Source of the DNA: Hydrogenovibrio sp. SC-1
GTDB taxonomy: Bacteria; Pseudomonadota; Gammaproteobacteria; Thiomicrospirales; Thiomicrospiraceae
Length of the DNA stretch: 64,000 nt
Reading direction: 5' to 3'
NCBI RefSeq assembly: GCF_002848135.1
Contig: NZ_PKGB01000001.1
Span: 124,001-188,000, forward strand
The notes under the pieces were generated by a model. The model saw only the letters and a list, made by a program, of their open reading frames with translations. It was not told where the DNA came from and did no database searches. A program made the position numbers and the translations under genes. How positions within the stretch are numbered: position 1 is the stretch's first letter; every line of letters begins with the position of its first letter. Below, piece by piece: positions 44,691-63,948 of this stretch.

Positions 44691-45293
44691 ATGAATAACC
44701 CTTCTTCAAATATTGTTTGGCATCAACATTTTGTAACGCAACAAGATCGAGCCAAACAAAAGCATCAGACCCCTTGTATTATCTGGTTTACGGGTTTGAG
44801 CGGCAGTGGCAAATCGACTTTAGCAAACCAATTGGAGCGTACGCTTTTTGATTCGGGTAAACATTGCTATTTATTAGATGGAGACAATGTACGTCATCGA
44901 CTCAATAAAGATTTAGGCTTTGGCGAGGCTGATCGTATTGAAAATATCCGACGTGTAGGGGAGGTAGCCAATTTAATGTGTGATGCGGGTTTAATCGTTA
45001 TTACTGCCTTTATTTCTCCTTTTCAAGCTGATCGTGAACTGGTGCGAAACATGGCAAGGCCAGGCCATTTTTTAGAAGTTTTTATCGATACCCCGCTCGA
45101 AGTTTGTGAGCAAAGAGATCCCAAAGGACTCTATCAAAAAGCCCGTGCCGGGGAAATTGCCAATTTTACAGGTATCGACTCACCCTACGAGACGCCAAGA
45201 GCGCCGGACATCCATATTCACAATCATGACGTCTCAATTGAAATTGTTACCCTGCAATTGGTGGATGCACTAACCGAAAAAGGCATACTGTAA
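44691..45293 (+). CDS. cysC: Adenylylsulfate kinase
   Basis: Phosphorylates APS to PAPS. 200 residues. P-loop GLSGSGKST (about 37-45), [15 protein letters not shown], the APS-binding [14 protein letters not shown]-type segment and FTGIDSPYE. Last gene of cysD-cysN-permease-cysC. PAPS reductase and sulfite reductase genes are not in the window. Confidence 0.97.
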
Positions 45294-45636
45294 TCTGTTT
45301 CTGAAAGTGATCAGGTAGTGTCGATTTGAACTGATTTATGCCATTCTAGAAATGCACTGAAAATGTGATTTTATGGAGGTTTTGACGATTTTTTTTACAT
45401 GTCTGCAATTCATTCGGCTTTATTTAATTTGTCTGGGGTTCGTTTGTCAGAAACGATTCTCACAAATTTGTCACAGACTCAAAAAAAAGGGATTCTGTGA
45501 CCAGAGTCTGGTATTTACATTTTGAATGAAAACCAGACGCTTTTAATATCAAGTAATTAGCAGTAGTAAAGGAAAGAGATGTCCTTAAGGCTGATAGAAT
45601 GGGGCGTTAGCTAATAAAAATTTATTTAAAAAGGGG
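45294..45636. other. Non-coding gap between cysC and tRNA-Asn
   Basis: No credible gene. A seven-base inverted repeat GTCTGGT (45506-45512) / ACCAGAC (45532-45538) with GCTTTT after it may be a weak terminator. The rest is AT-rich and featureless to my reading. Confidence 0.5.
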
Positions 45637-45664
45637 TTGCAAAGTTTTGTAAGCTGTCTATAAT
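45637..45664 (+). promoter_or_regulatory. tRNA-Asn promoter
   Basis: TTGCAA (45637-45642), 16-base spacer, perfect TATAAT (45659-45664), 33 bases before the mature tRNA. A GC-rich discriminator (ACGCCC) follows, as expected for a stringently controlled stable-RNA promoter. Confidence 0.8.
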
Positions 45665-45697
45665 ACGCCCATTCAAACGCAATGTTTGACCAACTAT

Positions 45698-45773
45698 TCC
45701 CCAATAGTTCAGTTGGTAGAACACCGGACTGTTAATCCGTATGTCGCTGGTTCGAGTCCAGCTTGGGGAGCCA
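45698..45773 (+). tRNA. tRNA-Asn (anticodon GTT)
   Basis: 76 bases with encoded CCA. Acceptor TCCCCAA/TTGGGGA, D arm GTTC/GAAC, anticodon arm CCGGA-CTGTTAA-TCCGT with GTT, and T arm GCTGG-TTCGAGT-CCAGC all pair. Followed by an intrinsic terminator. Confidence 0.98.
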
Positions 45774-45780
45774 CATTCTA

Positions 45781-45829
45781 AAGCCTGATGTTTCAAGTAC
45801 TTACGTGTTTTGAAGTCAGGCTTTTTTAT
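45781..45829 (+). terminator. Intrinsic terminator after tRNA-Asn
   Basis: Stem AAGCCTGA / TCAGGCTT with an inner TTTCAA/TTGAA extension, followed by TTTTT. Confidence 0.8.
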
Positions 45830-46035
45830 TGCCCAAAATAACCCTTGTGGGGAAAATTGTGTCATGGCCGCTTGTAGAGTGGTTTACATGGCGTTTTAGT
45901 TACTTATGAGTAAAATCGATTCGCTTTTAAGGGGTCTTGATTTGCGGCAGGATTGACTGATGAAGTGGCAGGCTAAATAAGGTGAGGTTTTGGTAACAGG
46001 AGTGTAAAACCTCGTCCTTTGCGTTGGAGTGAGTG

Positions 46036-46857
46036 TTATTTCACTACAAACCAGTCATTCAACAAGTTTTCTTTGTTATATAAGTGCGGTTCATAGCCAT
46101 GTTCAAAGGTAAACTTTTGTAGGCTAAAGCCGGCTTCATTGACAATGGCGTGAGCTGCGCCTGTATCCCATTCCATTGTAGGCCCAAGTCTTGGGTAAAT
46201 GTCCGCTTTACCTTCTGCAACTAAGCATAGCTTTAGTGAGCTGCCAATCGACTCTAATGTAATTTTATGCCCTTGTTTAGCCAAGTCATCAATAAACTGT
46301 TCCGTTTCCTTGGATAAGTGTGATTTACTAGCTACTATCTTTAATTCGCCAGGCTTGCGCTCGCTAGCGATGGGTAAGGTGTGGGTAACTATGTTGCTGT
46401 TAATCCTTTCTGATTTGAAGGCACCATCGCCTTGCTTGGCATAATACAGCTGCCCTAAAGCGGGGGTGTAAACTACGCCTAATACCGGTGTATTATTGTG
46501 AATCAGGGCAATATTGACGGTAAACTCATCATTCCTTTTCACAAATTCTTTAGTACCATCTAATGGATCAACTAACCAAAAGGTTGTCCAGCTTTTCCGT
46601 TCTTCGTAAGGAATATCACGACCTTCTTCAGATAGGATGGGGATATTGACACCCAAAGTATCCGATATTTTTTTCAAACCTGCTTCAATAACTTGGTTTG
46701 ATTTTTGGTCAGCTTCGGTAAGAGGAGATTCGTCCGCTTTAAAAGCCACTTGAAAATCTTGTACATAAACGGTCATTATGACCTCTCCAGCCTCTTTGGC
46801 AATTGAAATAATGTCGGTAATATCGATTTGATCTAATAATAGTGGTATTGATGACAT
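46036..46857 (-). CDS. cysQ: 3'(2'),5'-bisphosphate nucleotidase
   Basis: Hydrolyses 3'-phosphoadenosine 5'-phosphate left over from PAPS use, protecting sulfate assimilation; fits the nearby cysDNC. About 273 residues of the inositol-monophosphatase fold: ADESPLTEADQKSNQVI, LSEEGRDIPYEERKSW, FWLVDPLDGTKEFVKRNDEFTVNIALI, and the C-terminal WDTGAAHAIVNEAG. ATG 46857 has GGAA upstream; ATG 46869 adds four residues and has none. Confidence 0.92.
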   Translation of the reverse strand: MSSIPLLLDQIDITDIISIAKEAGEVIMTVYVQDFQVAFKADESPLTEADQKSNQVIEAGLKKISDTLGVNIPILSEEGRDIPYEERKSWTTFWLVDPLDGTKEFVKRNDEFTVNIALIHNNTPVLGVVYTPALGQLYYAKQGDGAFKSERINSNIVTHTLPIASERKPGELKIVASKSHLSKETEQFIDDLAKQGHKITLESIGSSLKLCLVAEGKADIYPRLGPTMEWDTGAAHAIVNEAGFSLQKFTFEHGYEPHLYNKENLLNDWFVVK

Positions 46858-46992
46858 AATAGATTCCATCAGGCAGGGAAGTTGTAGGTAAGGTTTTGAT
46901 TAAGGATAGCACATTGCGAGTGTTTTTGGGTTGCCAATATTATCTTGAGCGCTATAAGGGTGGCATATGTTGTGGAGGAGAGAGAAATTAAT

Positions 46993-47040: not shown

Positions 47041-47082
47041 AATCTTTAATTTCAAAATTTGAACAAAGTCCAGTTTAAAAAA

Positions 47083-47388
47083 ATGACTCCAGAAAACCAA
47101 TTACAAGTCCTGCGATATTTAGATTTCGAACCAAATCAACGTACTTTGGCTCAGAAACTTGGCTTTAGTTTGGGTAAAACGAACTACGTATTGAAGTGTT
47201 TAATGGAAAAAGGGTTGGTTAAAGCTGAGCGTTTTGCTCAAAATTCAAATAAATTAGGTTACCGATATGTGTTGACCCCTAAAGGTTTAAAAGAGCGTAT
47301 CCAGCTTACTGAACAGTTTATTTGTCGCAAACGTCAAGAATATGATGAATTATCTTCTGAATTGCAGAAGTTAAAAGCTTTTGAATGA
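47083..47388 (+). CDS. MarR-type EPS-associated transcriptional regulator
   Basis: 101 residues from ATG 47083. A winged-helix (about 5-75: LRYLDFEPNQRTLAQKLGFSLGKTNYVLKCLMEKGLVKAE) and a C-terminal helix, as in the MarR family EPS-associated regulators that head exopolysaccharide loci. ATG 47083 is preferred because family members start near this residue; an in-frame TTG at 47059 would add eight residues, and neither has a clear ribosome site. It probably controls the sugar genes that follow after a long leader. Confidence 0.82.
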   Translation: MTPENQLQVLRYLDFEPNQRTLAQKLGFSLGKTNYVLKCLMEKGLVKAERFAQNSNKLGYRYVLTPKGLKERIQLTEQFICRKRQEYDELSSELQKLKAFE

Positions 47389-47923
47389 TAAGGTTAAAGG
47401 TAGAAAAAAAGATTTTGGAGTAAAGGTTTGATGTTAAAGCCTTAATTGCAGTTGTTGCTGAATTTACCCTGTGGTCACTTTGTTATGTTTTGTAGATAAA
47501 CCCGATTGTGATGGTAGCTTCGTATTTCTTTTTGTTGAGAGTGGGTAAATTATTTTCTCGGTATTATCTGAAGAGCGGAGGCTAGGGTAGATTGCCTTCA
47601 AGTTTAGTAGTGAAAGTATCGTTAATGTTAACTAATCTTGATTGTAAAATATGGGTGACAGCCAAAGGTAATGTTTAAAAATAGCGCCTGTAAAACAGTC
47701 ATATTGATTTCATGCTGCTTGCTTTTATCATAAAAGTATGTCGGTTAGTGGCTGTCAGAGGCTAGTCTGGGGTAGAGAAAATGGATGTGTTATTTTGAAG
47801 TGAAGAGGTTGCCTAGTAGAGTAGGTTTTTACACAAAGTTTTAATAAGTTGTTAATTTAATATTGGTTCTGGTGTGGGCTGGTTAAGGTTCGGCAAGGTC
47901 TTTAATTGTGGAGTGATTACATA
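47389..47923. other. Long non-coding leader upstream of the polysaccharide genes
   Basis: About 535 bases with no credible reading frame. It holds two related elements, GAGGCTAG followed by GGGTAGA, at 47578-47591 and 47758-47776, exactly 180 bases apart. No ops/JUMPstart (GGCGGTAG) copy is present. Promoter and regulatory sites for the operon must lie here, but none can be named. Confidence 0.5.
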
Positions 47924-48502
47924 GTGAATGCAAAAGAATTTACCCCTCTTTATATAGAGAAACTGAAGTTGTTGTTAGATAGTGTGGATGCGAGTATTAT
48001 TCAAGATATTATTGAGTCGCTAGAATTAACTGTCAAGAAAAAGTCTAGAGTATATATTCTTGGTAATGGAGGTAGTTCTGCAACGGCCTCTCATATGGTT
48101 AACGACTTAGGTGCCGGCTTGCGTCGAAGAGAAATTATGAACTTCGATGTAACTAGTTTGGGTGATAATTCTCCAGTAGTTACAGCAATTGCTAATGATA
48201 TTGGTTATGAAAATGTATTTTATATGCAAATGAACGGGTTAGTTTCTAAAGACGATCTCGTAATAGCTATTTCATGTAGTGGTGATTCGCCCAATATCGT
48301 CAAAGCTGTTGGTTATGCAAAAGAAATTGGGTGTAAGGTCGTTGGTATAACGGGGTTTGAAGGTGGTTATCTTAAAGAAGTTGCCGATATTAAATTTCAT
48401 GTAGATGCCCCTAAGGGCGAGTATGGGTTGGTTGAAGATGTACATATGATCCTAGATCATATTATTTACTCATATTACATTAATCGAGGTTCTAATGCTT
48501 AG
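47924..48502 (+). CDS. SIS-domain phosphosugar isomerase (GmhA-like)
   Basis: About 192 residues. SIS fold with ILGNGGSSATASHMVNDLGAGLRRR, AISCSGDSPNIVKAVGYAKEIGCKVVGITG and the C-terminal EDVHMILDHIIYSYY. This is the phosphoheptose isomerase (GmhA) group, which converts sedoheptulose-7-phosphate to D-glycero-D-manno-heptose-7-phosphate. GTG 47924, with GGAG ten bases upstream, is the likely start; TTG 47906 is an alternative. First gene of the operon; overlaps the next by eight bases. The sugar handled in this cluster is an inference. Confidence 0.85.
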   Translation: MNAKEFTPLYIEKLKLLLDSVDASIIQDIIESLELTVKKKSRVYILGNGGSSATASHMVNDLGAGLRRREIMNFDVTSLGDNSPVVTAIANDIGYENVFYMQMNGLVSKDDLVIAISCSGDSPNIVKAVGYAKEIGCKVVGITGFEGGYLKEVADIKFHVDAPKGEYGLVEDVHMILDHIIYSYYINRGSNA

Positions 48503-49502
48503 AGTCGGTATTGCAGGGTATGGAAAGCTTGGTAAGGTTAGAGAAATTCATGTTAATAACGTTGATTTCGCAGAGGTTGTAGCGATATATGACATTGATC
48601 CTCCTGAATTACAGGGAGGGGTTGTTGTTTGTAACAGTTATGATGAGTTGTTGGATCAAAAATTAGATGCTGTATTTATTTGTGCTTACAATGATGTGCT
48701 TTCTGATTTTACAGTAAAAGCATTGGGACGGGGTGTTCATGTGTTTTGTGAGAAGCCTCCTGCGAGAAGTACTGCAGAGCTTCTCGCAGTTATTGAAGCG
48801 GAAAGTGCATCAGGGTTGATATTAAAGTATGGTTTTAATCATCGTTACCATTATTCTGTGATGGAAGCTAAAAAGTTAATAGACTCGGGGGATATGGGGC
48901 GTTTATTGTGGCTGCGTGGTGTCTACGGGAAGGCTGGCAGTATCGACTACCATCAAAATTGGCGAAATTTTAGAAACTTATCGGGCGGGGGGATATTGAT
49001 TGATCAAGGTATTCATATGCTTGATTTAATGATGTATTTTTCGGGTGGAACTTTTGAAAAAATTAATAGTTTTGTCACGACCGCTTTTTGGGATGTAGAG
49101 GCTGAAGATAATGCTTTTGCAATTATGCAAAATAAAGACCGTGTTACAGCAATGCTACATTCTTCCGCTACTCAGTGGAAACATAAATTTTTATTAGAAA
49201 TGTGTTTCGAAGAAGGCTATATAAACCTGGATGGGATCCTATCAGGAACTAGGAGTTATGCGCCAGAAACGCTCGTGGTTGGTAGAAGGGAGTTTGAGGA
49301 TGTAACCCATGCGATGGGTAAGCCTAAAGAAACTACTACATGGTTTGAATATGATCGCTCTTGGGAGTATGAGGTGCAAGAGTTTCTTAATGCAATTCAA
49401 GGTAGAGGTGAAATTGAAAACGGTACAAGCTCTGATGCATTTAATGCCTTGAAGTTGGTTGAAGATATTTATGAGTGTTCGGGGTTTTACAATGACAAGT
49501 AA
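48495..49502 (+). CDS. Gfo/Idh/MocA family oxidoreductase
   Basis: 335 residues. Rossmann fold with GIAGYGKLG at the start, EKPPARS (lysine of the catalytic EKP motif), and GGGILIDQGIHMLDLMMYFSGG with the catalytic D and H. Such enzymes oxidise or reduce sugar, inositol and nucleotide-sugar hydroxyls with NAD(P). Here a keto-cyclitol or keto-sugar made by neighbours is a fair guess. Overlaps both neighbours (8 and 11 bases). Confidence 0.88.
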   Translation: MLRVGIAGYGKLGKVREIHVNNVDFAEVVAIYDIDPPELQGGVVVCNSYDELLDQKLDAVFICAYNDVLSDFTVKALGRGVHVFCEKPPARSTAELLAVIEAESASGLILKYGFNHRYHYSVMEAKKLIDSGDMGRLLWLRGVYGKAGSIDYHQNWRNFRNLSGGGILIDQGIHMLDLMMYFSGGTFEKINSFVTTAFWDVEAEDNAFAIMQNKDRVTAMLHSSATQWKHKFLLEMCFEEGYINLDGILSGTRSYAPETLVVGRREFEDVTHAMGKPKETTTWFEYDRSWEYEVQEFLNAIQGRGEIENGTSSDAFNALKLVEDIYECSGFYNDK

Positions 49503-50421
49503 GGTGGTTGGTGTAACGGCGGTGGCGTTTTCCAGAGATCAAGAGAGAATTGAGTATCTAAGGGAAAGTTTTGATGGTGATGTAGTAATTAACGAAAAAC
49601 AGGTTCGTTTTACGCCAGAAGAGTTAATCCCTTTTTTGCAACACTGTGATTATGCGATTATCGGTTTGGATAAAATTACCGATGATGTTTTGTCTCAATG
49701 CCCACAATTGAAGGTGATATCTAAGTATGGTGTGGGTTTGGATAATATCGATTTCAAGGCCTGTGCGAAACATGGTGTAAAAGTTGTGTATCCGAAAGGA
49801 GTGAATAAAAGATCAGTTTCTGAAGAGGTTTTAGGCGCATCACTATCCTTGCTAAGAAACCTGTATGTTACTTCAAATCTTCTTAAAAAAGGGGAGTGGC
49901 TTGTTCAAGGAGGTAGACAGTTAACGAATACCACCTTTGGCATTATCGGTGTGGGTCATATTGGAAAAGATTTGATTGAAGTTCTGAAGCCATTTAATTG
50001 TGAACTTTTGGTTAACGATATTATTGAACAAGATGCCTATTATGCTTCTGTAGGTGCCAAGGCTGTTTCGAAAGAAGAAATATTTCAAAAGTGTGATGTT
50101 ATTTCTATTCATACACCGCTTGATGAACAAACAAAACACATGGTAAATACCGAAACATTAGCGATGATGAAGAGTAATGCAATAATTATTAACGCGGCTA
50201 GAGGTGGGATTGTTGATGAGAATGCTCTAAAGCGAGCTCTATTGGATAATAAAATAGCCGGAGCAGCATTGGACGTATATGAAGTTGAGCCTGCAGAAGA
50301 TAAAGCGTTGTTAGAAATTCCTAACCTAATGTGCATGCCACATATTGGTGGCAACGCCAAGGAAGCCGTCGTCGCTATGGGAATGGCAGCAATCACGAAT
50401 TTGATTAATGCTATTGAGTGA
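49492..50421 (+). CDS. D-2-hydroxyacid dehydrogenase family protein (SerA-like, short)
   Basis: 309 residues from ATG 49492. NAD-binding FGIIGVGHIGKDLIE, NAARGGIVDENAL, CMPHIGGNAKEAV with the catalytic histidine, but no ACT domain, unlike the serA in this window. In polysaccharide clusters such enzymes act on phosphoglycerate-like or sugar-acid substrates. The start MTSKVVGVTA overlaps the end of the previous gene by 11 bases. Substrate unknown. Confidence 0.86.
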   Translation: MTSKVVGVTAVAFSRDQERIEYLRESFDGDVVINEKQVRFTPEELIPFLQHCDYAIIGLDKITDDVLSQCPQLKVISKYGVGLDNIDFKACAKHGVKVVYPKGVNKRSVSEEVLGASLSLLRNLYVTSNLLKKGEWLVQGGRQLTNTTFGIIGVGHIGKDLIEVLKPFNCELLVNDIIEQDAYYASVGAKAVSKEEIFQKCDVISIHTPLDEQTKHMVNTETLAMMKSNAIIINAARGGIVDENALKRALLDNKIAGAALDVYEVEPAEDKALLEIPNLMCMPHIGGNAKEAVVAMGMAAITNLINAIE

Positions 50422-50427
50422 GATCTG

Positions 50428-51177
50428 ATGTTAATAAGTTTTAGAGATCAAAAAGTTCTGGTAACTGGTGGAAGTCGTGGAATAGGTAAACAAATTGCGT
50501 TACTTTTTATTGAGTCAGGATGTAATCAAATTGTCGTTACTGGGCAGTCAAAATCAATACCTGATTGGATAACAAGTTTCCAAAAAAAATCAATTGAAAT
50601 TCAATATCATTCTATGGATTTAGCCACAACAGGATGGGAAGACAGTTTTCGAAAACTTGTTGATGAATATGATGGTTTTGATGTTTGTGTAAATAATGCT
50701 GGAATTAACTCGATTCATCACTTATCAGAATTTCCTGTTGATAAAATTCAAGAAATATTGAAGGTGAACCTACAGTCGCCAATAATAATTAGTGGTATCG
50801 TCTCTAAAAAAATGGAGAAGAAGCAGTATGGTCGTATCGTAAATATAGCTTCTATCTTTGGAGTGGTATCAAAAGAAAAACGAAGTGCCTATACAGCAAG
50901 TAAATCAGGATTGATTGGTGTAACAAAGACGATGGCTCTGGATTTGGCTTCCAGCAAGGTTTTGGTGAATGCTGTTTCACCAGGTTTTATTGAGACAGAG
51001 CTAACTGAAAGAGTTTTGGGTGAAGAAGGTATTGCTGAGATGAAGCAAAGAATACCTTTGAATCGACTCGGTAAACCGCAGGAAATAGCAAATTATGTAT
51101 TGTTTTTAGCAAGTGATAAAAACACATATATGACTGGTCAAAATATAACCGTAGATGGAGGGTTTGTCTGTGAATGA
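50428..51177 (+). CDS. Short-chain dehydrogenase/reductase
   Basis: 249 residues, classical SDR. Cofactor loop TGGSRGIGKQ, NNAGI, catalytic S (NIASIFG) and YTASK, and the terminal SPGFIETELT. FabG-like in length. In this context it probably reduces or oxidises a sugar or cyclitol intermediate. Its last eight bases overlap the next gene. Confidence 0.9.
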   Translation: MLISFRDQKVLVTGGSRGIGKQIALLFIESGCNQIVVTGQSKSIPDWITSFQKKSIEIQYHSMDLATTGWEDSFRKLVDEYDGFDVCVNNAGINSIHHLSEFPVDKIQEILKVNLQSPIIISGIVSKKMEKKQYGRIVNIASIFGVVSKEKRSAYTASKSGLIGVTKTMALDLASSKVLVNAVSPGFIETELTERVLGEEGIAEMKQRIPLNRLGKPQEIANYVLFLASDKNTYMTGQNITVDGGFVCE

Positions 51178-52237
51178 GCTAAAGATTTTTTCAGATTCCG
51201 CAACTTATGATTTATTCTTTAGTTCAAATTGGGATGAGATTAGAACTGATATTGATAGGTGTGCAGCTGTAATTATTGACGATAAGGTGTTTGGTTTGTA
51301 TGGAGAAATTCTCAATATACAAGATAAAAAAATAATTAAAATAAAGGTGTCTGAAGATATTAAAACACCTCAAACTGCATTAGATATTTGTGAAGAAATG
51401 GTTTTGGCAGGAGTTACTCGTGATGCTTTTATTGTTGCCATTGGTGGAGGGGTTGTTCAGGATTTGGTAACGTTTGCTGCAAGTATTTACATGAGAGGTA
51501 TTGATTGGGTGTTGTACCCAACAACGCTGCTATCGCAAGCAGATAGTTGTATAGGTGGAAAAAGCTCAATTAATTTTAAATCTTGGAAAAATATTCTTGG
51601 AAATTTTTATACCCCAAAAAGAATATATATTCAGAGCCAGTTTCTAGAAACCTTAACTGATGATGATATTCGTTCAGGAATTGGTGAGATATTAAAGGTC
51701 TTTATGCTTTCTGGCCAGGAATCATTAGAACGTTTAATTGAACAAATGAATTGTTATCAAAATGATTCAAGAGTTCTTGAGTCCCTGATTTTCGAATCTC
51801 TAAAGTTAAAAAATAACATTCTTGAGGTGGATGCGCTCGATAACGGCTTGAGATTGAAAATGAATTATGGTCACTCTTTCGGTCACGCTTTAGAAGCTGC
51901 TACACATTTTGGTATTCCTCATGGTATAGCCGTAACAATAGGTTTAGATGTGGCAAATTATTTTGCCTTAAAGCAAGGGCTAATTGAACATCATTTATTT
52001 GATCGATTACATTCTACTTTAACTTTAAATCTTATAGATTCCGACTTTGTAGATTTTAATTTTAACGAATTTATTAGGGCTCTTGAGAAGGATAAGAAAA
52101 ATAAACAAGGTTTTTATGGCTTAATAGTTCCTGTTTCACAAGGGGAAGTAGAGCTTAAGTTTTTTGAGATGAACCAAATAAATAACAGTATGATTCGTGA
52201 ATATTTTACTAAATATTATTCGGCGAATGTTGAGTAG
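51170..52237 (+). CDS. Sugar-phosphate cyclase, 3-dehydroquinate synthase family
   Basis: 355 residues. Domains of the DHQ-synthase superfamily: NAD loop AIGGGVVQDLVTF, PTTLLSQADSCIGGKSSIN, the zinc ligands in SGIGEILKV (Glu), NYGHSFGHALEA (His) and PHGIAV (His). It differs from housekeeping AroB at several spots (GGGVVQD for GGGVVGD). The family includes AroB, 2-deoxy-scyllo-inosose synthase and 2-epi-5-epi-valiolone synthase, which cyclise phosphorylated keto-sugars. Position in a surface-sugar cluster beside a GmhA-like isomerase suggests a cyclitol product rather than dehydroquinate. GTG 51170 is the start: GGAGGG ends seven bases before it. Confidence 0.85.
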   Translation: MNELKIFSDSATYDLFFSSNWDEIRTDIDRCAAVIIDDKVFGLYGEILNIQDKKIIKIKVSEDIKTPQTALDICEEMVLAGVTRDAFIVAIGGGVVQDLVTFAASIYMRGIDWVLYPTTLLSQADSCIGGKSSINFKSWKNILGNFYTPKRIYIQSQFLETLTDDDIRSGIGEILKVFMLSGQESLERLIEQMNCYQNDSRVLESLIFESLKLKNNILEVDALDNGLRLKMNYGHSFGHALEAATHFGIPHGIAVTIGLDVANYFALKQGLIEHHLFDRLHSTLTLNLIDSDFVDFNFNEFIRALEKDKKNKQGFYGLIVPVSQGEVELKFFEMNQINNSMIREYFTKYYSANVE

Positions 52238-52257
52238 TAGTAAGGTTAAGTGTCGTT

Positions 52258-52950
52258 ATGAATGTACAGTTTAATGAGATTAATGAAGAAATATTCTTCA
52301 AAACTGTTTCCACATGTTTAATTGAAGAGATAAATCGTGCAATTCAAGAAAATGGGCTGTGCAGGTTTGTCTTGAGTGGTGGTCGGACGCCGTTAGGCAT
52401 TTTTGACCAATTTGTTGAAAACGAAAATAAACTTGATTGGTCAAAAGTTGATATTTATTGGCTGGACGAACGTTGTGTAAGTCAAGATTCACCCGAGAGC
52501 AATTTTGGTGTGGCTAAACGTCACTTGATCGATCGTCTTAGGAAAAAACCAAAGTATTATCCTATGTATACAAGTGGGGAGTATTCTCAAGCTGCCTTAG
52601 AGTATGAAGAGCTGATTCGTAGGAATATATCAAAAAATAATGAAATCCCGGTTTTTGATATCGCATTAATTGGTATTGGATCTGATGGGCATTTCGCTTC
52701 CATCTTTCCAGAAGGTAATGTTTTAGCTGAAAAATACAAATTGATTAAACATGAGTACGTCGAAAAATTGGGCTCAAATAGAATTTCAATGACATTACCC
52801 TTGATTAATAAGTTCAAGCACGGTGTTGTTGTTTCACGAGGTAAAGATAAGTCATGGGTCGTAGAATCATGCAAATCCAAAGAGAACATGTCTTTGCCAA
52901 TAAGTCGAGTTAATATAGAAAATGGTACTTTGACTTGGTTTATATGTTGA
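52258..52950 (+). CDS. 6-phosphogluconolactonase family protein
   Basis: 230 residues of the DevB/Pgl family: [39 protein letters not shown] and [14 protein letters not shown]. The housekeeping enzyme opens 6-phosphogluconolactone; the same fold serves aminosugar-phosphate deaminases. No zwf or gnd is nearby, so a role on a product of this cluster is likely. Twenty bases follow the cyclase gene. Confidence 0.85.
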
Positions 52951-52957
52951 AAGGAAT

Positions 52958-54094
52958 ATGCTTTTGAATAATGGTAATACCATACTGGTCACAGGAGGTG
53001 CTGGATTTATTGGTTCAGCAGTCATCCGATACCTCATTAATGAGACCGATTTCACTGTAGTGAACGTTGATAAATTAACTTATGCAGGAAATAAAGAGTC
53101 ACTTACTTCTATTGAGTTAAGTAATCGTTACTATTTTGAAAGACTCGATATTTGTGATGCTTTAGAACTTCGACGTGTTTTTAATCAATATAAGCCAGAT
53201 ATTATTATGCATTTGGCTGCAGAATCGCATGTTGATCGATCAATTGATGGGCCTGGTGATTTTATTCAAACGAATATTGTGGGCACATATACTTTACTGG
53301 AACAAGCAAGAGCTTACTGGTCAGAGTTAGATTGTGATAAAAAAAGAAAGTTTCGCTTTCACCATATTTCAACTGATGAAGTGTATGGTGATTTACCTCA
53401 TCCTAATGAGATTAGAAATAAACAAATATATGATCAGGTCTTACCTCTGTTTACTGAAAAAACAGCGTATGCGCCAAGCTCTCCGTATAGCGCCAGTAAA
53501 GCGAGCTCAGATCATTTAGTAAGGGCTTGGCACAGAACTTATGGAGTGCCCACTCTTGTTACGAATTGCTCTAATAATTACGGTCCATATCATTTTCCAG
53601 AAAAATTAATTCCACTAGTGATTTTAAATGCAATCGAAGGGAAGCCTCTTCCTGTTTATGGAAAGGGTGATCAAATTCGTGATTGGCTTTATGTTGAAGA
53701 TCATGCCAGAGCTTTAGTGTTGGTTGCAACTAAGGGAAAAACTGGGCAAACCTATAATATAGGTGGACATAATGAGAAACAAAACATCGAAGTAGTCAAA
53801 GTTATTTGTAATATACTTGATGAATTAATTCCTCCATTTGATCTAGGTTTACGAACTAAAGATGGCGGGCAGCTCACTACATACAATTCACTGATTACAT
53901 TCGTAAGTGATAGGCCTGGTCATGATATGCGTTATGCTATTGATGCTAGTAAAATACAAAGAGAGCTTGGCTGGACCCCACAAGAAACATTTGAAAGTGG
54001 TATTCGAAAAACTGTACAGTGGTATTTGGATAACCTAGCATGGTGTAAACATGTGCAGGATGGCAGTTATCAAAGAGAAAGACTAGGAAATTAA
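52958..54094 (+). CDS. rmlB: dTDP-glucose 4,6-dehydratase
   Basis: 378 residues, extended SDR. NAD loop [33 protein letters not shown] with the catalytic D and [11 protein letters not shown], then [19 protein letters not shown]. Converts dTDP-glucose to dTDP-4-keto-6-deoxyglucose. ATG 52958 lies close to AAGGA; TTG 52964 has better spacing. The stop overlaps the rmlA start. Confidence 0.96.
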
Positions 54095-54969
54095 TGATGA
54101 AAGGCATTATCTTAGCCGGAGGCTCCGGTACACGGCTTTATCCCATTACACGGGGCGTATCTAAACAGTTGTTACCAATTTATGATAAACCAATGGTTTA
54201 CTATCCGTTAAGTGTGTTGATGCTTGCAGGCATTCAGGATGTTTTGATAATTACCACGTCAGAAGATCAAGCTGGCTTTATTCGTATGCTTGGCGATGGT
54301 AGAGATTTTGGTGTTAATATCAGCTACGCAGTTCAGCCTGCACCTAATGGTTTGGCAGAAGCATTTATTCTTGGTGAAGAATTTATCGGTAATGAAAGTG
54401 TATGTTTGGTTCTAGGTGATAATATTTTCTGGGGGCAGGGTTTTAGTCCTGTTCTCAAGAGAGCAGTAGGACGGCAAGTAGGGGCTACTGTCTTTGGTTA
54501 TCAAGTCAAAGATCCTGAACGTTTTGGTGTTGTGGAGTTTGATAAAGATAAAAAGGCCATTAGTATTGAAGAAAAGCCTAAAAAACCAAAATCAAATTAT
54601 GCTGTAACTGGCTTGTATTTTTTTGATAATGACGTGATTGAGATGGCTAAACAAGTTCAACCCTCTATTCGAGGAGAATTAGAAATTACCTCTATCAACC
54701 AAATGTACATGGAGCGTGGTGATTTAAATGTAGAATTGCTTGGTCGAGGTTTTGCTTGGCTTGACACGGGTACTCATGAGAGTCTATTAGAAGCTGCTAT
54801 GTTTGTTGAAACTATCGAGAAACGTCAAGGTTATAAGGTCGCCTGCCTTGAAGAAATTGCATGGCGTAATGGTTGGTTAAGCAGTGATGATGTGCTAGTA
54901 GCCGCTAAAGTCCTATCTAAGAATGGTTATGGGCAATACTTAGCCGATATGGTCGGTGGCGAGTTATGA
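54094..54969 (+). CDS. rmlA: Glucose-1-phosphate thymidylyltransferase
   Basis: 291 residues, full length. [72 protein letters not shown] are diagnostic. Makes dTDP-glucose from dTTP and glucose-1-phosphate. ATG 54094 and ATG 54097 are both possible; the second gives the usual MKGI start. Overlaps rmlB and the next gene by one to four bases. Confidence 0.97.
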
Positions 54970-55364
54970 TTGCCTATGAGCATCAGGTTTTAGGAGATCA
55001 CCGAGGGAAGCTAGTGGCTATCGAATCGAATCGTCAAGTTCCATTTGAAATAAAGCGAGTATTTTACATTTATGGAACACAACAAGATACGCCACGAGGA
55101 AACCATTCACATTATAAAACCAAGCAATATTTAATTGCCGTAAATGGAAAGTGTAAAGTCACTTTGAATGATGGCCGGCAGGAAATTACCTATGATTTAG
55201 ATGCACCCAACAAGGGAGTATTTCAAGATGCTTTAATATGGGGGACGATGCATGACTTTTCAAGCGATTGTGTGCTCCTTGTCTTGGCAGATAATTTTTA
55301 TGAATCATCAGATTATATTACCAATTACCAAGAGTTCCTGAGTATCGTCAATGGCAAATTTTAA
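54966..55364 (+). CDS. dTDP-4-keto-6-deoxyglucose 3,4-ketoisomerase (FdtA/QdtA family)
   Basis: 132-residue WxcM-like cupin. [12 protein letters not shown]-type start, the active-site [18 protein letters not shown] with paired histidines, and [31 protein letters not shown]. FdtA gives the 3-keto-6-deoxy-galactose form and QdtA the gluco form; the sequence alone does not tell which. With rmlAB and the aminotransferase it makes a dTDP-3-amino-3,6-dideoxyhexose. Overlaps the next gene by 14 bases. Confidence 0.9.
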
Positions 55365-55905
55365 AATTCACACGCTTGCTGATGTACAAACCGATAGGAT
55401 TGGAGAAAATACGACTATTTGGCAGTTTAGTGTGGTATTAAAAGGCGCTATAATAGGCGCTAATTGTAATATTAATGCATTAACCCTAATTGAAAATGAT
55501 GTGGTTCTAGGTGATAATGTTACAGTAAAATCAGGTGTCCAAATTTGGGATGGTTTACGTATTGGTAACAATGTCTTTATTGGTCCCAATGTCACTTTTA
55601 CTAACGATTTCACTCCAAGATCAAAGCATCAGCCAACGGAATTTTTGAAAACAACTCTTGAGCATCATGCCTCAGTTGGAGCTAACGCAACTATTATCGG
55701 TGGGCTTGTTATTGGTGCTTACGCCATGGTTGGTGCCGGTAGCGTGGTTACTAAAAATGTACCTCCATACGCTTTGGTGTATGGTAATCCAGCCAAACAG
55801 TATGGTTATGTTTGTGACTGTGGTTCTAAGCTTCAGAATTTTATATGTCCAAATTGTAATAATCATTTTCGCATGGTAGATAATGTTTTAAATAAAATAC
55901 AGTAG
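55351..55905 (+). CDS. Hexapeptide-repeat N-acetyltransferase (FdtC/QdtC-like)
   Basis: 184 residues of left-handed beta-helix repeats ([97 protein letters not shown]). Its C-terminus carries a small zinc-ribbon-like CDCG...CPNC motif, as in WbpD-type acetyltransferases. It should acetylate the 3-amino group of the dTDP-sugar made by the neighbours. Confidence 0.9.
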
Positions 55906-55914
55906 GTATTAAAA

Positions 55915-57015
55915 TTGATTCCATTTTTAGATTTAAAAGGCATTAACGCTCAATATAGAGAAGAGTTGGCTCAAGTTGCAGTAGATGTGATTGATTCGGG
56001 TTGGTATATTCAAGGTAATTATGTTGAAACTTTTGAGCGCGAATTTGCTGACTATTGTGGTACTAAGCATTGTATTGGTGTAGCTAATGGGTTAGATGCC
56101 TTAATCTTAACTTTACGTGCATGGAAGGAATTGGGTAGGTTGCAAGAAGGTGATGAGGTTATTGTTCCTGCAAATACCTATATAGCAAGTATTTTAGCTA
56201 TTACTGAAAATGGCTTAACTCCTGTTTTGATTGAACCAGATGAGAGAACCTACAACTTATCAGGTGCTTTAGTCGAAAAAGCGATTACGTCTAAGACTAA
56301 AGTAATTCTTGCAGTGCATTTATACGGCCAATTGGCTCCTATGTTAGAAATTAATGCTATTGCTGAAAAATTTGACCTATTGGTGCTTGAGGATTCTGCT
56401 CAGGCGCACGGGGCTAGTATTAATGGACAAAAGGCTGGTAGTTGGGGTGATGCATCAGGTTTTAGTTTTTATCCTGGAAAAAATCTTGGTTCGTTAGGTG
56501 ATGCGGGGGCCGTAACTACTAATGATGACGAGTTGGCCCATATTATTCGAGCACTTGGTAATTACGGTAGTAATAAAAAGTATGAAAATATTTATCAAGG
56601 TGTAAATAGCCGCTTAGATGAAATACAAGCTGCCATGCTTACTGTAAAGTTGAAATATCTGGATATCGAAACTGAGAAGAGAAGATCTGTTGCTAAAGCA
56701 TATTTGGATGGAATTAGTAACCCAAAAATACAGTTACCGATTATTAATGACGAAGAAGATAGTCATGTATTTCATTTGTTTGTTATACGTACTTCTAAGC
56801 GTGATGAGTTACAGCAATATTTGCAAAATGCAGGCGTTCAGACGCTTATTCATTATCCAATACCTCCCCATCATCAAAAAGCCTACAGTAAATTTTTTAA
56901 ACTTGAATTGCCAACTACTGAAATGTTGCATAAAGAAGTATTAAGCTTGCCTATTTACCCTACTCTGGGACAAACATCCATTGAAATAATATCTAAACTC
57001 ATTAATGAATATTAA
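55915..57015 (+). CDS. DegT/DnrJ/EryC1 aminotransferase (FdtB/QdtB-like)
   Basis: 366-residue PLP sugar aminotransferase. [17 protein letters not shown] start, [37 protein letters not shown], and [16 protein letters not shown] with the PLP lysine. It should add the 3-amino group to the keto-sugar from the FdtA-like isomerase. The start is a TTG (55915): the MIPFLDL N-terminus is typical, and AGTAGG lies eight bases upstream. Overlaps the flippase gene by 11 bases. Confidence 0.92.
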
Positions 57016-58279
57016 TACCATCTTTGTTCTGACAACATTTCAGACTGTAGTAAAGCTTTTATCTGGAATTCTGATCAATAAAGTTTTTGCTGTTTACCTT
57101 GGTCCTGCAGGTTTGGCTGTTGTCGGCCAACTTCAGAACTTTATATCATTAGTCATTAATGTTGCTTCAGGTTCAATTCATACTGGGTTGGTTAAGTATA
57201 CTGCTGAATACAGTGACGATCATGAAAAACGCCGTAAGATATGGGGCAATGGATTTTATTTAAGTTTAATATTATCTGGACTAGTTATTGTTTTTATTAG
57301 TTTAAATGCAGAATTTTTTAGTGAACTAATATTGTTCTCACAAGAATATACAAGTTTAATCGCCATGTTAGCCTTAACGATGGTTTTTCAAGTCATTTAT
57401 ATGTTCATATTATCGATTTTAAATGGGTTGCAGGATTTAAAAGTTTTTATTATTACCAATATTGTAATTAGTGTTTTGACAACTGTTATTACGGTTTGGA
57501 TGTCTATCGACTTTGGTTTGGATGGCGCATTATATTCGATAATTATTTGTCAATTTGTTGTGTTTATATTTGTTTCTCTAATTTTTTATTCAAGATATGG
57601 GGTTCGCTTTTTTTATTTTGGGAGATTTAAACAAGTTTTTGAAAAAGATACTGTAAAAAAGCTATTACAGTTTGGTATGGTTTCATTTATTTCAGGGGTT
57701 GTTTTAAGCTTGACTCAAATTGGTGTTCGAAATATTGTCGTAAACTCAGCAAATTTGGATGTTGCAGGTTATTGGGAAGCTTTGATGAAAATATCAACTT
57801 ATTTTACAATGCTTTTTTTGTTGCCTGCCAGTATTTATTATTTACCGAGGTTTGCTGAGCTGAAGTCAGTTTCAAAAATTAAAAGTTTATTCTTAAAATC
57901 CGTAGTGTTTTTTTTACCATTTGCCCTGTTTGGGGCTTTTGTATTTTGGTTGTTTAAAGAGTTCTTTATTGAGCTCTTGTTGTCAAAAGAGTTTCTAGTA
58001 ATTGCACCTTTAGTTGTGTTGATGTTGATTGGTGATATTTTTAGAATTCTTGCATATCTTATTGTAAATTTGATGTTTGCTAAGAAATTTTTATTCCGAC
58101 TTATATTATTGGATATCGTATACGGCAGTGTTTTTATAACACTTGTCTATTTTCTGTTTGCTGATAATGGTATGGTTCTATTGGGATATGTTTATTTATT
58201 TTGTAATGTTTTAATTTTTCTTTATACGATACAATTTTACTTAAATATAGATACACTTTTGGAGAAAAAGGGTGCTTAA
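57005..58279 (+). CDS. Wzx-type polysaccharide flippase
   Basis: 424 residues, about 12 hydrophobic segments throughout. The N-terminus ([35 protein letters not shown]) resembles WzxE/O-antigen translocases that move lipid-linked repeat units across the inner membrane. It places this locus in the Wzx/Wzy pathway. Wzy is not in the window. Confidence 0.9.
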
Positions 58280-59036
58280 AAACAAATTAATAAATAATGA
58301 GCTTACAATTGGTTCTTGGCTAACAATGAACGAAACCAATATTGTTGAAATTATGGCTCAAGCAGGTTTTGAATGGCTGTGTATTGATATTGAGCATACT
58401 AGTATTGATTTGGAGGCAACTAAGAAACTTATTATTACTATTCAGTCTTCAAATATGAAAGCTCTAGTCCGAGTAAGCAAAAATGAAGAAGTTGTCATTA
58501 AACGAGTCATGGATATGGGGGCGGATGGAGTAATAATTCCCATGGTTAATTCAGAAGCAGATGCGCAACAGGCAGTTGGTTTTGTAAGGTATCCGCCATA
58601 TGGAACTCGAGGTGTTGGTTTGTCAAGGGCACAAGGATATGGTGAGCGTTTTAATGAGTACAAGGAATGGGTTTTAAATGAAGCTATTATAATAGCCCAA
58701 ATTGAACATGTTGATGGAGTTAAAGATATTGAAAATATTTTAGCAGTAGATGGGATTGATGGGACAATAATCGGTCCATATGACTTGTCTGGAAGTCTTG
58801 GTTTTCCTGGACAGTTCGAGAGGGATGATGTTAAGGAAGCAATTGACAAGGTTAAAAAAGCCTGTAAAGAAGCAAATAAGCCATATGGATTTCATGTCAT
58901 TCAGTCAGAGCCCGAGCATATGAAGAAGAGAATACTTGAAGGGGCGTCCTTCCTTGCATACAGTACAGATTTTTTCTTTTTAGGCGATTGTTCTAAGAGT
59001 GGGATGGCCTCGATAAGAGAGTCATTAGTTAAATAA
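58272..59036 (+). CDS. HpcH/HpaI family aldolase
   Basis: 254 residues. TIM barrel with IGSWLTMNETNIVEIMAQAGFEWLCIDIEHTSID at the start, RVSKNEEVVIKRVMDMGADGVIIPMVNS, and YGTRGVGLSRAQGYG, with divalent-metal ligands E and D. These enzymes join or split pyruvate-derived units and aldehydes (2-keto-3-deoxy-acids). Next to a CMP-ulosonate-type synthetase, a synthetic role in making a 3-deoxy-ulosonic acid is plausible. GTG start with GGAG seven bases upstream, overlapping the flippase. Confidence 0.88.
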   Translation: MLKNKLINNELTIGSWLTMNETNIVEIMAQAGFEWLCIDIEHTSIDLEATKKLIITIQSSNMKALVRVSKNEEVVIKRVMDMGADGVIIPMVNSEADAQQAVGFVRYPPYGTRGVGLSRAQGYGERFNEYKEWVLNEAIIIAQIEHVDGVKDIENILAVDGIDGTIIGPYDLSGSLGFPGQFERDDVKEAIDKVKKACKEANKPYGFHVIQSEPEHMKKRILEGASFLAYSTDFFFLGDCSKSGMASIRESLVK

Positions 59037-59061
59037 AAAACTTTTATAATAGAGAAACGTT

Positions 59062-59853
59062 ATGAGTAAAAAACAACTTAACATTGTAGCTGTAATTCCT
59101 GCACGAATGGCAGCGACCCGTTTTCCTGGTAAGCCAATGGCAAAAATTCTAGATATTCCAATGATAGAACATGTTTTTAAAAGGGTTAGCCTAGCTGAAT
59201 CTCTTTCAGACGTTTATGTCGCGACATGTGATGCAGAAATTTTTGATTATGTAGAATCTATCGATGGAAAAGCAGTCATGACATCCGATTGTCATGAAAG
59301 ATGTAGTGATCGCTGCGCTGAGGCTATGTTGAAAATTGAAGAATCTACTGGGAAAAGAGTTGATATTTTAGTTATGGTTCAAGGTGATGAGCCACTAACG
59401 CACCCTGATATGATTGATGAAGCGCTCTCTCCAATGTTATCTGATAGTTCAGTTCTGATCACAAATTTAACAGGTGAGATTAAAACTGATAACGAGTTTA
59501 ACAGTCCCAATGAAGTGAAGGTGGTTATGGATAAGGAAGGGAATGCACTTTACCTTTCTCGAGAACCCATTCCTTCTAAAAAGAAGTTTTCAGGAGAAGT
59601 CCCTCAGTATAAACAAATTCCTGTCATCCCATTCAAGCGTGACTTTCTAATTAAATATAATGAAATGACCCCAACAGAGTTAGAGATTATTGAATCAGTT
59701 GATATGTTGAGAGTGCTTGAAAATGGATATAAGTTAAAGATGATCAAGACAAATTATGTTGTTAAAGCTGTAGATATTCCAGAGGATATCGGGGTCGTAG
59801 AGTCTCTTATGATCAATGACAAGTTATATAAAAAAACATTATTTTCTATTTAA
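59062..59853 (+). CDS. KdsB-like CMP-sugar synthetase
   Basis: 263 residues of the 3-deoxy-manno-octulosonate cytidylyltransferase family: VAVIPARMAATRFPGKPMAKI, VQGDEPLTHPDMIDEAL, ALYLSREPIPS, and the C-terminal VVKAVDIPEDIGVVES. It differs from housekeeping KdsB in the CTP/KDO region (TSDCHERCSDRCAEAM in place of T..HxSGTDRxAE). Probably activates a related ulosonic acid with CTP. Follows the aldolase by 25 bases. Confidence 0.86.
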   Translation: MSKKQLNIVAVIPARMAATRFPGKPMAKILDIPMIEHVFKRVSLAESLSDVYVATCDAEIFDYVESIDGKAVMTSDCHERCSDRCAEAMLKIEESTGKRVDILVMVQGDEPLTHPDMIDEALSPMLSDSSVLITNLTGEIKTDNEFNSPNEVKVVMDKEGNALYLSREPIPSKKKFSGEVPQYKQIPVIPFKRDFLIKYNEMTPTELEIIESVDMLRVLENGYKLKMIKTNYVVKAVDIPEDIGVVESLMINDKLYKKTLFSI

Positions 59854-59882
59854 AAATTAAATTAAAAAAAGGTACCTTAAAA

Positions 59883-62757: not shown

Positions 62758-62843
62758 AGAAAATTTTCATAAAACTTTATGAAGCTGTTAAGAGCTTATT
62801 TAAGAAAAAAAAGAAGCAGAACGATAACTACCCAATGTGGTGA
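62754..62843 (+). CDS. Candidate 29-residue basic peptide, unknown
   Basis: A short frame coupled to the SGNH gene by an ATGA overlap. The peptide begins MKKIFIKLYEAVKSLFKKK, an amphipathic basic helix, and ends in polar and aromatic residues (NDNYPMW). Such coupling argues for real translation, but no homologue is recalled. It could be membrane-associated or a partner of the SGNH protein. Confidence 0.45.
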   Translation: MKKIFIKLYEAVKSLFKKKKKQNDNYPMW

Positions 62844-62970
62844 TTGTATTTTTTTATGAATAGTCAGGTTATCCAAAAAATTAGTTCTTAAATGATTTTT
62901 TAATTATGTTAGTTTTTTACTATTTTCTATAGGGTTGATATCTTGGCTATTAAAATAAACTAGGTGAATT

Positions 62971-63948
62971 GTGAAAGAAGAAGATATCCGTCCTAAGAAA
63001 ATTTTTGATACATTTTTGGGATTAATCCAAGAAGATGTTTCTGAAATATTTAATGGTTGCGAAACGCAAGAAATGCCATGCCCGGCATGTAATTCAGGCG
63101 CATCTCCTGTTGTTTACGAAAAAGATGGATTTGGTGTTAGTGAGTGCGAAGAGTGTTTGACTTTGTATGTTAACCCACGTCCAAAGTTTAAGTATTTTAA
63201 AAAGTTTTACTCTGATTCGAAGTCTTCAAAGTTTTGGGCTACTACATTTTATAAAGAAACTGAAGTATCTCGTCGAGAACAAATCTGGAAACCAAAAGCT
63301 CAGCAAATAAATGTACTTTTAAAAAACTACAATATTCAAAATGTCTATGATATCGGCGGAGGTTATGGGGTTTTTGCTGAAGAACTCGAAGCATTAGATT
63401 ATGCGTCAGTGACTGTTATTGAGCCTTCAATGCACTTAGCTAAAATATGCAGAGACAAAGGTTTCAAGGTTTTAGAGTCATTTTTAGAAGATTTAAGAAC
63501 TGATGATTTTGAATCAGCTCAGACTAAATGCTTTGTTAGTTTTGAGCTTTTTGAGCACTTATATGACCCGAAAGCATTTTTAGATAACTTATATTGTTTG
63601 ATGGGTTCTGGTGATATTTTTATATTTTCTACATTAAGTGGTTTAGGTGTAGATATACAAACATTAGGTAAACACTCAAAGTCTATTTCTCCGCCACAGC
63701 ATTTAAATTTTTTGAATCCTAGTTCAATAAAATTTCTCTTAAAAAGGATCGGCTTTACTATTGAGGGTGTTACAACGCCAGGAAAGCTTGATCTAGATAT
63801 AATGAAAAACAATTCAAAATATATCAATGATAGTTTCTGGCGAAAATTCTTGAAAGTCGCTTCTGAAGAACAATTTGATATGATGCAAAAGTCTATTTCC
63901 GATAGTGGCTTTAGTTCCCATATGCTTGTTGTTTGTAAAAAGCTGTAG
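62971..63948 (+). CDS. Class I SAM-dependent methyltransferase with N-terminal zinc-binding motif
   Basis: 325 residues. N-terminal CPACNSG...CEECLTLYVNPRP gives a four-cysteine zinc motif, as in sugar C-methyltransferases and related enzymes. The SAM fold follows with VYDIGGGYGVFAEELEAL (motif I) and the DIFIFSTLSGLGVD region. It probably methylates a sugar in this locus. GTG start with CTAGGTG upstream. 128 bases separate it from the preceding small frame; these are AT-rich and hold no other gene. Confidence 0.84.
   Translation: MKEEDIRPKKIFDTFLGLIQEDVSEIFNGCETQEMPCPACNSGASPVVYEKDGFGVSECEECLTLYVNPRPKFKYFKKFYSDSKSSKFWATTFYKETEVSRREQIWKPKAQQINVLLKNYNIQNVYDIGGGYGVFAEELEALDYASVTVIEPSMHLAKICRDKGFKVLESFLEDLRTDDFESAQTKCFVSFELFEHLYDPKAFLDNLYCLMGSGDIFIFSTLSGLGVDIQTLGKHSKSISPPQHLNFLNPSSIKFLLKRIGFTIEGVTTPGKLDLDIMKNNSKYINDSFWRKFLKVASEEQFDMMQKSISDSGFSSHMLVVCKKL

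Follow-up and report, generated by a model that had tools for sequence, protein, structure and literature searches.

The window analysed here, a stretch of 64,000 nucleotides from Hydrogenovibrio sp. SC-1 (contig NZ_PKGB01000001.1, positions 124,001 to 188,000), contains at positions 47924-52950 a set of six genes that includes a predicted sugar-phosphate cyclase and lies in a polysaccharide locus. All six open reading frames (ORFs) are intact, complete and located on the plus strand. The original prediction held that the six genes overlap or nearly touch and precede genes for a dTDP-sugar, and this was confirmed by the ORFs and their spacing; its family assignments for all six also agree with Pfam and NCBIfam. 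The genes are as follows:

47924..48502, plus strand: SIS-domain sugar-phosphate isomerase of the phosphoheptose-isomerase (GmhA) type (Pfam SIS_2)
48495..49502, plus strand: Gfo/Idh/MocA oxidoreductase, suggested to dehydrogenate an aldose phosphate at C1 (Pfam domains GFO_IDH_MocA and C3)
49492..50421 (ATG 49492), plus strand: D-2-hydroxyacid dehydrogenase of the phosphoglycerate dehydrogenase (PGDH) type, proposed to convert an aldonate to a 2-keto-aldonate (Pfam 2-Hacid_dh_C)
50428..51177, plus strand: classical short-chain dehydrogenase/reductase (SDR), proposed to reduce the ketone group of the cyclised product (Pfam adh_short_C2)
51155..52237, plus strand: predicted sugar-phosphate cyclase from a clade related to AroB but separate from it (Pfam DHQ_synthase; TIGR04425; TIGR01357; trees)
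52258..52950, plus strand: 6-phosphogluconolactonase (6PGL) family protein, proposed phospho-aldonolactone lactonase (TIGR01198; 6PGL matches in the PDB)

The Gfo/Idh gene overlaps the SIS gene by 8 bp and is in turn overlapped by the 2-hydroxyacid dehydrogenase gene; the SDR gene begins 6 bp past the latter, the cyclase and SDR genes overlap by 23 bp, and the lactonase gene follows after 20 bp, with rmlB another 7 bp downstream. Two candidate starts were found for the SIS gene, TTG at 47906 and GTG at 47924, and the latter is probably the correct one, since it is preceded by GGAG at 47911-47914, nine bases upstream. The best NCBIfam match of the SIS protein is TIGR00441 gmhA (102 bits, below the cut-off of 209), and all 13 of its 13 best PDB matches are phosphoheptose isomerases. 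The structures nearest to the Gfo/Idh enzyme are those of inositol dehydrogenase and of glucose-fructose and aldose-aldose oxidoreductases. The 2-hydroxyacid dehydrogenase matches TIGR01327 (PGDH) with 219 bits (cut-off 454) and PGDH in the PDB with an E-value of 9e-50, and the lactonase scores 165.5 bits to TIGR01198, above the cut-off of 124.45.

The cyclase gene very probably encodes a dedicated enzyme other than AroB that acts in a surface-glycan pathway. In a tree of 90 sequences, it fell within a clade of 69 members (Shimodaira-Hasegawa-like approximate likelihood ratio test, SH-aLRT, 99), apart from the AroBs, 2-deoxy-scyllo-inosose synthase (DOIS), 2-epi-5-epi-valiolone synthase (EEVS) and desmethyl-4-deoxygadusol synthase (DDGS), and in a more careful tree of 36 sequences the family branch had a support of 99/97. 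These four groups were the references compared; DOIS and DDGS are on long branches (very long for DOIS), so their exact placement is unsure. A grouping of the window cyclase with AroB was rejected by the approximately unbiased (AU) test (p=0.004). Moreover, aroK and aroB are paired as usual on contig C6 of this genome, and the window copy sits in the polysaccharide locus. On the separate clade, the AU test and this pair, we rejected a housekeeping AroB identity. The original prediction had set the cyclase apart from AroB and had named, among the grounds for abandoning it, a grouping with AroB together with the cyclase being the only aroB of the genome; neither was found. Its view that this is not a standard sugar pathway is likewise upheld.

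The best NCBIfam model for the window cyclase is TIGR04425 (363 bits, below the cut-off of 400), and its score to TIGR01357 (aroB) is 272 bits, also below the cut-off (305). TIGR04425 is a hypothetical NCBI family (AroB-related putative sugar phosphate phospholyase, cyclizing; hypothetical equivalog) to which no reaction is assigned. A relative from a genome of the same class, L024, which has Gfo/Idh, SDR and dehydrogenase neighbours, scores 479 bits to this model and thus exceeds the cut-off, and the window cyclase shares both clade and gene neighbourhood with such members (the rows of L024 and L030 are identical in the tree alignment). The Firmicute rows L104 and L105 grouped with the AroBs, and G315, which was picked up as a cyclase relative, proved to be an ordinary aroK-aroB and was set aside. 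A tblastn search of the plasmid collection at 1e-40 gave no match. Our search of the openly accessible literature, which covered carbocyclic glycan sugars as well as polysaccharide loci with a cyclase or a dehydroquinate synthase, found no paper on the gene set or naming TIGR04425.

With regard to the active site, the window cyclase contains the zinc ligands E178, H240 and H256 and the motif GGGVVQD, in agreement with the original prediction. The residues below are numbered as in the 3-dehydroquinate synthase (DHQS) of Aspergillus, to which they were mapped by motif; K250 and R264 are K219 and R233 of the window protein. The window cyclase retains R130, D146, K152, K161, N162, E194, K197, K250, R264, N268, H271, H275, H287 and K356, and nearly all of its 112 relatives retain the DHQS residues, except that K197 is His in 20/113 and Arg in 3/113 and that a few positions have a gap or another residue. 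In DOIS, R264 is replaced by Gly and N268 by Glu, where the window cyclase has Arg and Asn; in EEVS/DDGS, K250 is replaced by Met, N268 by Asp or Ala and H275 by Pro, where the window cyclase has Lys, Asn and His. We rejected both a DOIS and an EEVS/DDGS identity on these residues and the tree. The family is marked by GGGxxQD, in which Q takes the place of the G or S of AroB (G is present in two rows of the set); this Q motif served in part as a seed for the genome search, and the matches from the unseeded viral search as well as L004, L026 and L028, which were also found without it, likewise carry Q. The AlphaFold (AF2) model of the window cyclase has a confidence (pLDDT) of 92, and its best structural matches are DHQS structures, AroB structures being the nearest folds. 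Since the DHQS residues that are lost in DOIS, EEVS and DDGS are kept, an acid with a terminal phosphate, resembling 3-deoxy-D-arabino-heptulosonate 7-phosphate (DAHP), is favoured: the predicted substrate is a DAHP-like acidic 2-keto 7-phosphate, which appears likelier than sedoheptulose-7-phosphate or glucose-6-phosphate. The active-site residues fit such an acid, short of proof, and they narrow the heptulose- or hexose-phosphate substrate that was originally proposed.

The genome scan yielded 80 loci and the viral scan 27. As our 'type I' label is partly based on neighbours, association tests were instead run on every genome locus flanked by 4 kb or more on each side (59 loci), for about a dozen gene pairs and with thresholds that we set ourselves. 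In terms of p-values, which ignore shared ancestry, Gfo/Idh co-occurred with SIS (p=8e-8), the dehydrogenase (p=3e-8) and a methyltransferase (p=3e-7), and an HpcH-family aldolase with a KdsB-type enzyme (p=3e-6; HpcH is accompanied by KdsB in 10/11 loci). The last three of these partners, which the originally described gene set lacked, are also present in the window (58272-63948):

58272..59036, plus strand: HpcH/HpaI-family aldolase, recurrent KdsB partner (Pfam HpcH_HpaI; TIGR02311 183 bits, cut-off 369)
59062..59853, plus strand: KdsB-type cytidylyltransferase, a cytidine monophosphate (CMP)-sugar synthetase (NF009905 289 bits, cut-off 255)
62971..63948, plus strand: zinc-ribbon class I methyltransferase, recurrent partner (Pfam Methyltransf_23)

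Since the genome has its own aroB, a pgl gene on contig C27, a gmhA-like gene and two better kdsB matches elsewhere, the window copies of these families are extra ones. Of the loci that have Gfo/Idh or SIS, 19/20 contain a CMP-transferase (KdsB- or NeuA-like) within 9 kb, versus 3/39 of the others; among the partners outside the core, the CMP-sugar synthetase is the one found most consistently. The methyltransferase is near 11/19 cyclase loci with Gfo/Idh and 0/40 without. An SDR gene is near 73 of the cyclases in the genome collection, in 72 cases within 3 kb and at a median distance of 0, and most window-like loci have the dehydrogenase and Gfo/Idh genes a short distance from the cyclase. 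Such sets were found in Devosia, Prochlorococcus, Pelagibacteraceae, Chloroflexi, Desulfarculus, Alteromonas and Lachnospiraceae records, and in two Flavobacteriales loci (L034 and L043) HpcH, KdsB, methyltransferase, dehydrogenase, Gfo/Idh, SIS, SDR and cyclase stand in one row. As the same partners adjoin related cyclases in several phyla, the association goes beyond chance. The conserved unit is thus cyclase and SDR together with SIS, Gfo/Idh, 2-hydroxyacid dehydrogenase and CMP-sugar synthetase; the HpcH aldolase and the methyltransferase are often extra members, and the lactonase is optional. A search for the same six genes had been suggested with the original prediction: their recurrence was borne out, but not a fixed six-gene unit, as the lactonase is rare and the dehydrogenase, Gfo/Idh and SIS genes also occur without the cyclase.

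A single gene context for the cyclase family was rejected, since a second context proved to be separate from that with Gfo/Idh. In this second context, which comprises 33/59 loci, the cyclase is accompanied by an acetolactate-synthase-like thiamine pyrophosphate (TPP) enzyme, and 26 of these loci also have an HpcH-type aldolase different from that of the window. The TPP enzyme is found in 0/19 loci with Gfo/Idh versus 33/40 without; examples with the TPP enzyme, HpcH-type aldolase, SDR and cyclase are L026, L058, L070, L072 and L075, among others. A distinct cyclase set is found within the same genus (L004, genome G004), where an HMG-CoA-lyase-like aldolase, an SDR, the cyclase and an FGGY kinase occur together. 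In the phage-like contigs L109-L112 and L114-L117, NeuA-like, SIS, SDR and cyclase genes are clustered and neither Gfo/Idh nor the dehydrogenase was detected; L109, L116 and L117 have an additional gene resembling class III aminotransferases. The viral contigs L118-L135 constitute a second phage-like group, with the TPP enzyme, SDR and cyclase next to a NeuB-like gene.

Searches with the window HpcH and a related dehydrogenase retrieved loci without a cyclase. Seven of these (L147-L149, L162, L164, L165 and L167) encode an extended SDR and a haloacid dehalogenase (HAD) phosphatase alongside the dehydrogenase, often together with KdsB, HpcH, lactonase and methyltransferase, and L147, L148, L149, L165 and L167 possibly represent an unstudied pathway to a CMP-sugar acid. 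Of the cyclases checked, only that of L103 has such a HAD phosphatase nearby, as if cyclase and HAD phosphatase were alternative means of phosphate removal. In our reading of these few loci, the dehydrogenase would yield a 2-keto acid for the CMP-transferase, and cyclase plus SDR would offer the phosphorylated intermediate an alternative fate. In two further loci (L163 and L168) SIS, Gfo/Idh, dehydrogenase, KdsB, HpcH and methyltransferase occur with neither SDR nor cyclase. L168 also has a transketolase-like gene (L168:4266-6248) upstream of KdsB, Gfo/Idh, SIS and dehydrogenase; this may supply sedoheptulose-7-phosphate, or may be a coincidence.

Gene content, separate clade, conserved active site and recurrent neighbourhood all come from computation, and they bring us to a model in which the set constitutes a dedicated pathway that supplies the surface polysaccharide with a carbocyclic sugar acid. 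We place the probability of this model as a whole slightly below one half (about 0.45); all substrates, the order of the steps, the final product and any role for HpcH are those that we infer. The SIS isomerase would convert a heptulose phosphate, for example sedoheptulose-7-phosphate, to an aldoheptose-7-phosphate, which the Gfo/Idh enzyme would oxidise at C1 to a lactone, and the 6PGL homologue would open the lactone ring. The PGDH-like dehydrogenase would then oxidise C2 to give a 2-keto-heptonate-7-phosphate, in effect the 3-hydroxy analogue of DAHP. The enzyme belongs to the PGDH/PdxB superfamily, and PdxB provides a precedent for C2 oxidation of an aldonate phosphate. The AroB-like cyclase would close the ring and expel the phosphate in the manner of DHQS, the SDR would reduce the ring ketone to give a polyhydroxylated quinate-like acid, and the KdsB-type enzyme might activate this with CMP at the carbon bearing both the hydroxyl and the carboxyl group. 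The original prediction envisaged a cyclitol or a branched acidic residue, and either a cyclitol or an acidic residue may be the product. In favour of the model are the step that it gives to each of the six genes, the DHQS-type active site, the family matches of the SIS, lactonase and dehydrogenase proteins, the co-occurrence of the partner genes, the HAD phosphatase in cyclase-less loci and the presence of further aroB, pgl, gmhA-like and kdsB genes elsewhere in the genome. That it represents an aldol-free oxidative route which starts from a heptulose phosphate and leads to a carbocyclic ulosonic-type acid, activated with CMP, as a surface-glycan building block, via a cyclase clade that is distinct from all characterised cyclases tested and occurs in several phyla and on phage-like contigs, is a claim about which we have considerable doubt.

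Several observations weigh against the model. A CMP ester on a carbocycle is unfit as an ordinary glycosyl donor and is a chemical oddity, and HpcH has no clear role in the proposed pathway. The lactonase is near only three related cyclases of the genome collection besides that of the window, and the phage-like contigs have the cyclase with neither Gfo/Idh nor dehydrogenase detected. Conversely, because of L163 and L168, the trio of SIS, Gfo/Idh and dehydrogenase appears to function with KdsB also without a ring step. Finally, R264 taken by itself is also retained in EEVS.

Some of these points would be accommodated if the cyclase acted like EEVS, directly on sedoheptulose-7-phosphate or on the SIS product, giving a valiolone-type cyclitol that Gfo/Idh and SDR modify in the manner of inositol dehydrogenases while the dehydrogenase, HpcH and KdsB make a separate CMP-sugar. 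The gene content of the phage-like contigs, the similarity of the Gfo/Idh enzyme to inositol dehydrogenases and the occurrence of KdsB, HpcH and dehydrogenase without the cyclase are consistent with this, but K250, N268 and H275 are of the DHQS and not the EEVS type, the tree separates the family from EEVS/DDGS, and in most window-like loci the dehydrogenase and Gfo/Idh stay near the cyclase; we therefore consider it unlikely. A role for HpcH would be gained if this aldolase joined pyruvate, or hydroxypyruvate from the PGDH-like enzyme, to an aldose phosphate to form the DAHP-like substrate, and if one of its products were activated by KdsB. Hydroxypyruvate is indeed handled by both PGDH-like enzymes and HpcH aldolases, and the pairing of HpcH with KdsB argues for such a route, as does the other branch of the family, in which cyclase and SDR are paired with a different HpcH-type aldolase (26/59 loci). 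However, about half of the loci with Gfo/Idh or SIS have no HpcH within 9 kb, and SIS, Gfo/Idh and lactonase would be left without a role, which makes this route quite improbable.

The retained DHQS residues, the TIGR01357 score (272 bits, cut-off 305) and the AroB structures as nearest folds would also suit a second DHQS that acts on DAHP itself and diverts shikimate-pathway carbon into a quinate- or shikimate-like glycan substituent. This we regard as a rather poor candidate, given the separate clade, the AU test against a grouping with AroB and the fact that SIS, Gfo/Idh, dehydrogenase and lactonase, which co-occur far beyond chance, would have nothing to do. Least of all do we expect a DOIS-like route, in which the cyclase would make a deoxy-inosose from glucose-6-phosphate and other hexose phosphates would be the substrates of the lactonase and dehydrogenases: the 6PGL homologue does score above its family cut-off and the Gfo/Idh enzyme is inositol-dehydrogenase-like, but the Gly and Glu of DOIS (at R264 and N268) are absent from the window cyclase, the tree leaves DOIS outside the family, although on a very long branch, and the SIS protein is of the phosphoheptose type.

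The surroundings of the six genes are those of a Wzx/Wzy polysaccharide locus of low GC content. A MarR-family regulator marks its left edge and is followed by the six-gene set, then rmlB, rmlA, an FdtA-like ORF, an acetyltransferase and an aminotransferase gene, and a Wzx-type flippase gene:

47059..47388, plus strand: EPS-associated MarR-family regulator (TIGR04176 115 bits, cut-off 88), left edge of the polysaccharide locus
52958..57015, plus strand: dTDP-amino-sugar genes rmlB, rmlA, FdtA-like ORF, acetyltransferase and aminotransferase (rmlB and rmlA above NCBIfam cut-offs)
57005..58279, plus strand: Wzx-type flippase (Pfam Polysacc_synt; PRK15099 WzxE 147 bits)

The FdtA-like ORF has no NCBIfam match, and its label derives from the sequence only. 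Beyond the window, the locus, as read from the sequence, continues with more sugar-nucleotide and glycosyltransferase-like genes, and a membrane protein encoded there could be the Wzy polymerase. The GC content drops from 41-45% upstream to 34-37% inside the locus and, among 12 genomes of the genus, the cyclase is found in this genome only, with one distant relative in G004; the locus is thus variable and probably imported. It also encodes a NodU-type carbamoyltransferase (59883-61724), and carbamoyltransferases are likewise present in L036 and L165. An adenylyl-sulfate kinase gene and CysQ (44691-46869) adjoin the locus, and together with a sulfotransferase-like gene further along (L178:1464-2477) they hint at a sulfated glycan.

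The gene set itself is real and widespread, and its chemistry is presumptive. Bacterial glycans are known to contain only a few carbocyclic sugars, whose biosynthesis, to our knowledge, has yet to be elucidated; a gene set conserved across several phyla now names likely enzymes for such sugars. If the cyclase, as is very probable, forms a carbon ring from a sugar acid, the cell surface would bear a rare sugar with an all-carbon ring. Should the substrate be a 2-keto-heptonate phosphate, this would be a new sugar-phosphate cyclase reaction, as well as a route to a sugar acid without the usual condensation with phosphoenolpyruvate. The results also suggest that many '3-dehydroquinate synthase' annotations in polysaccharide loci stand for something else.

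The characterised sugar-phosphate cyclases comprise DHQS, aminoDHQS, DOIS, EEVS, EVS and DDGS, to which the uncharacterised EboD can be added (PMC4426668, PMC5133447). A carbocycle-containing sugar of a surface polysaccharide has a precedent in bradyrhizose from lipopolysaccharide (PMC4743980), although the text searched mentions no cyclase and nothing links that sugar to the present gene set. EboD resembles the window cyclase in being an uncharacterised cyclase annotated as DHQS within a conserved six-gene neighbourhood, and its authors place it among the enzymes that use sedoheptulose-7-phosphate (PMC5133447); by description, however, the ebo partners are a UbiA-superfamily enzyme, a hydrolase and a phosphodiesterase-like protein, none of which is in the window set. 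TIGR04425 is the best model for the window cyclase, and its member L024 has the same partners, but the window copy scores below the cut-off. DOIS (BtrC), EEVS and DDGS share superfamily and overall chemistry with the window cyclase and are precedents outside the shikimate pathway (PMC4426668, PMC5133447), whereas their K250, R264, N268 or H275 are changed and they lie outside the window clade. AroB, finally, has the same fold, zinc ligands and all of the substrate- and phosphate-binding residues checked, and differs from the window cyclase in its separate clade, in GD or SD instead of QD in the GGG motif and in its gene partners.

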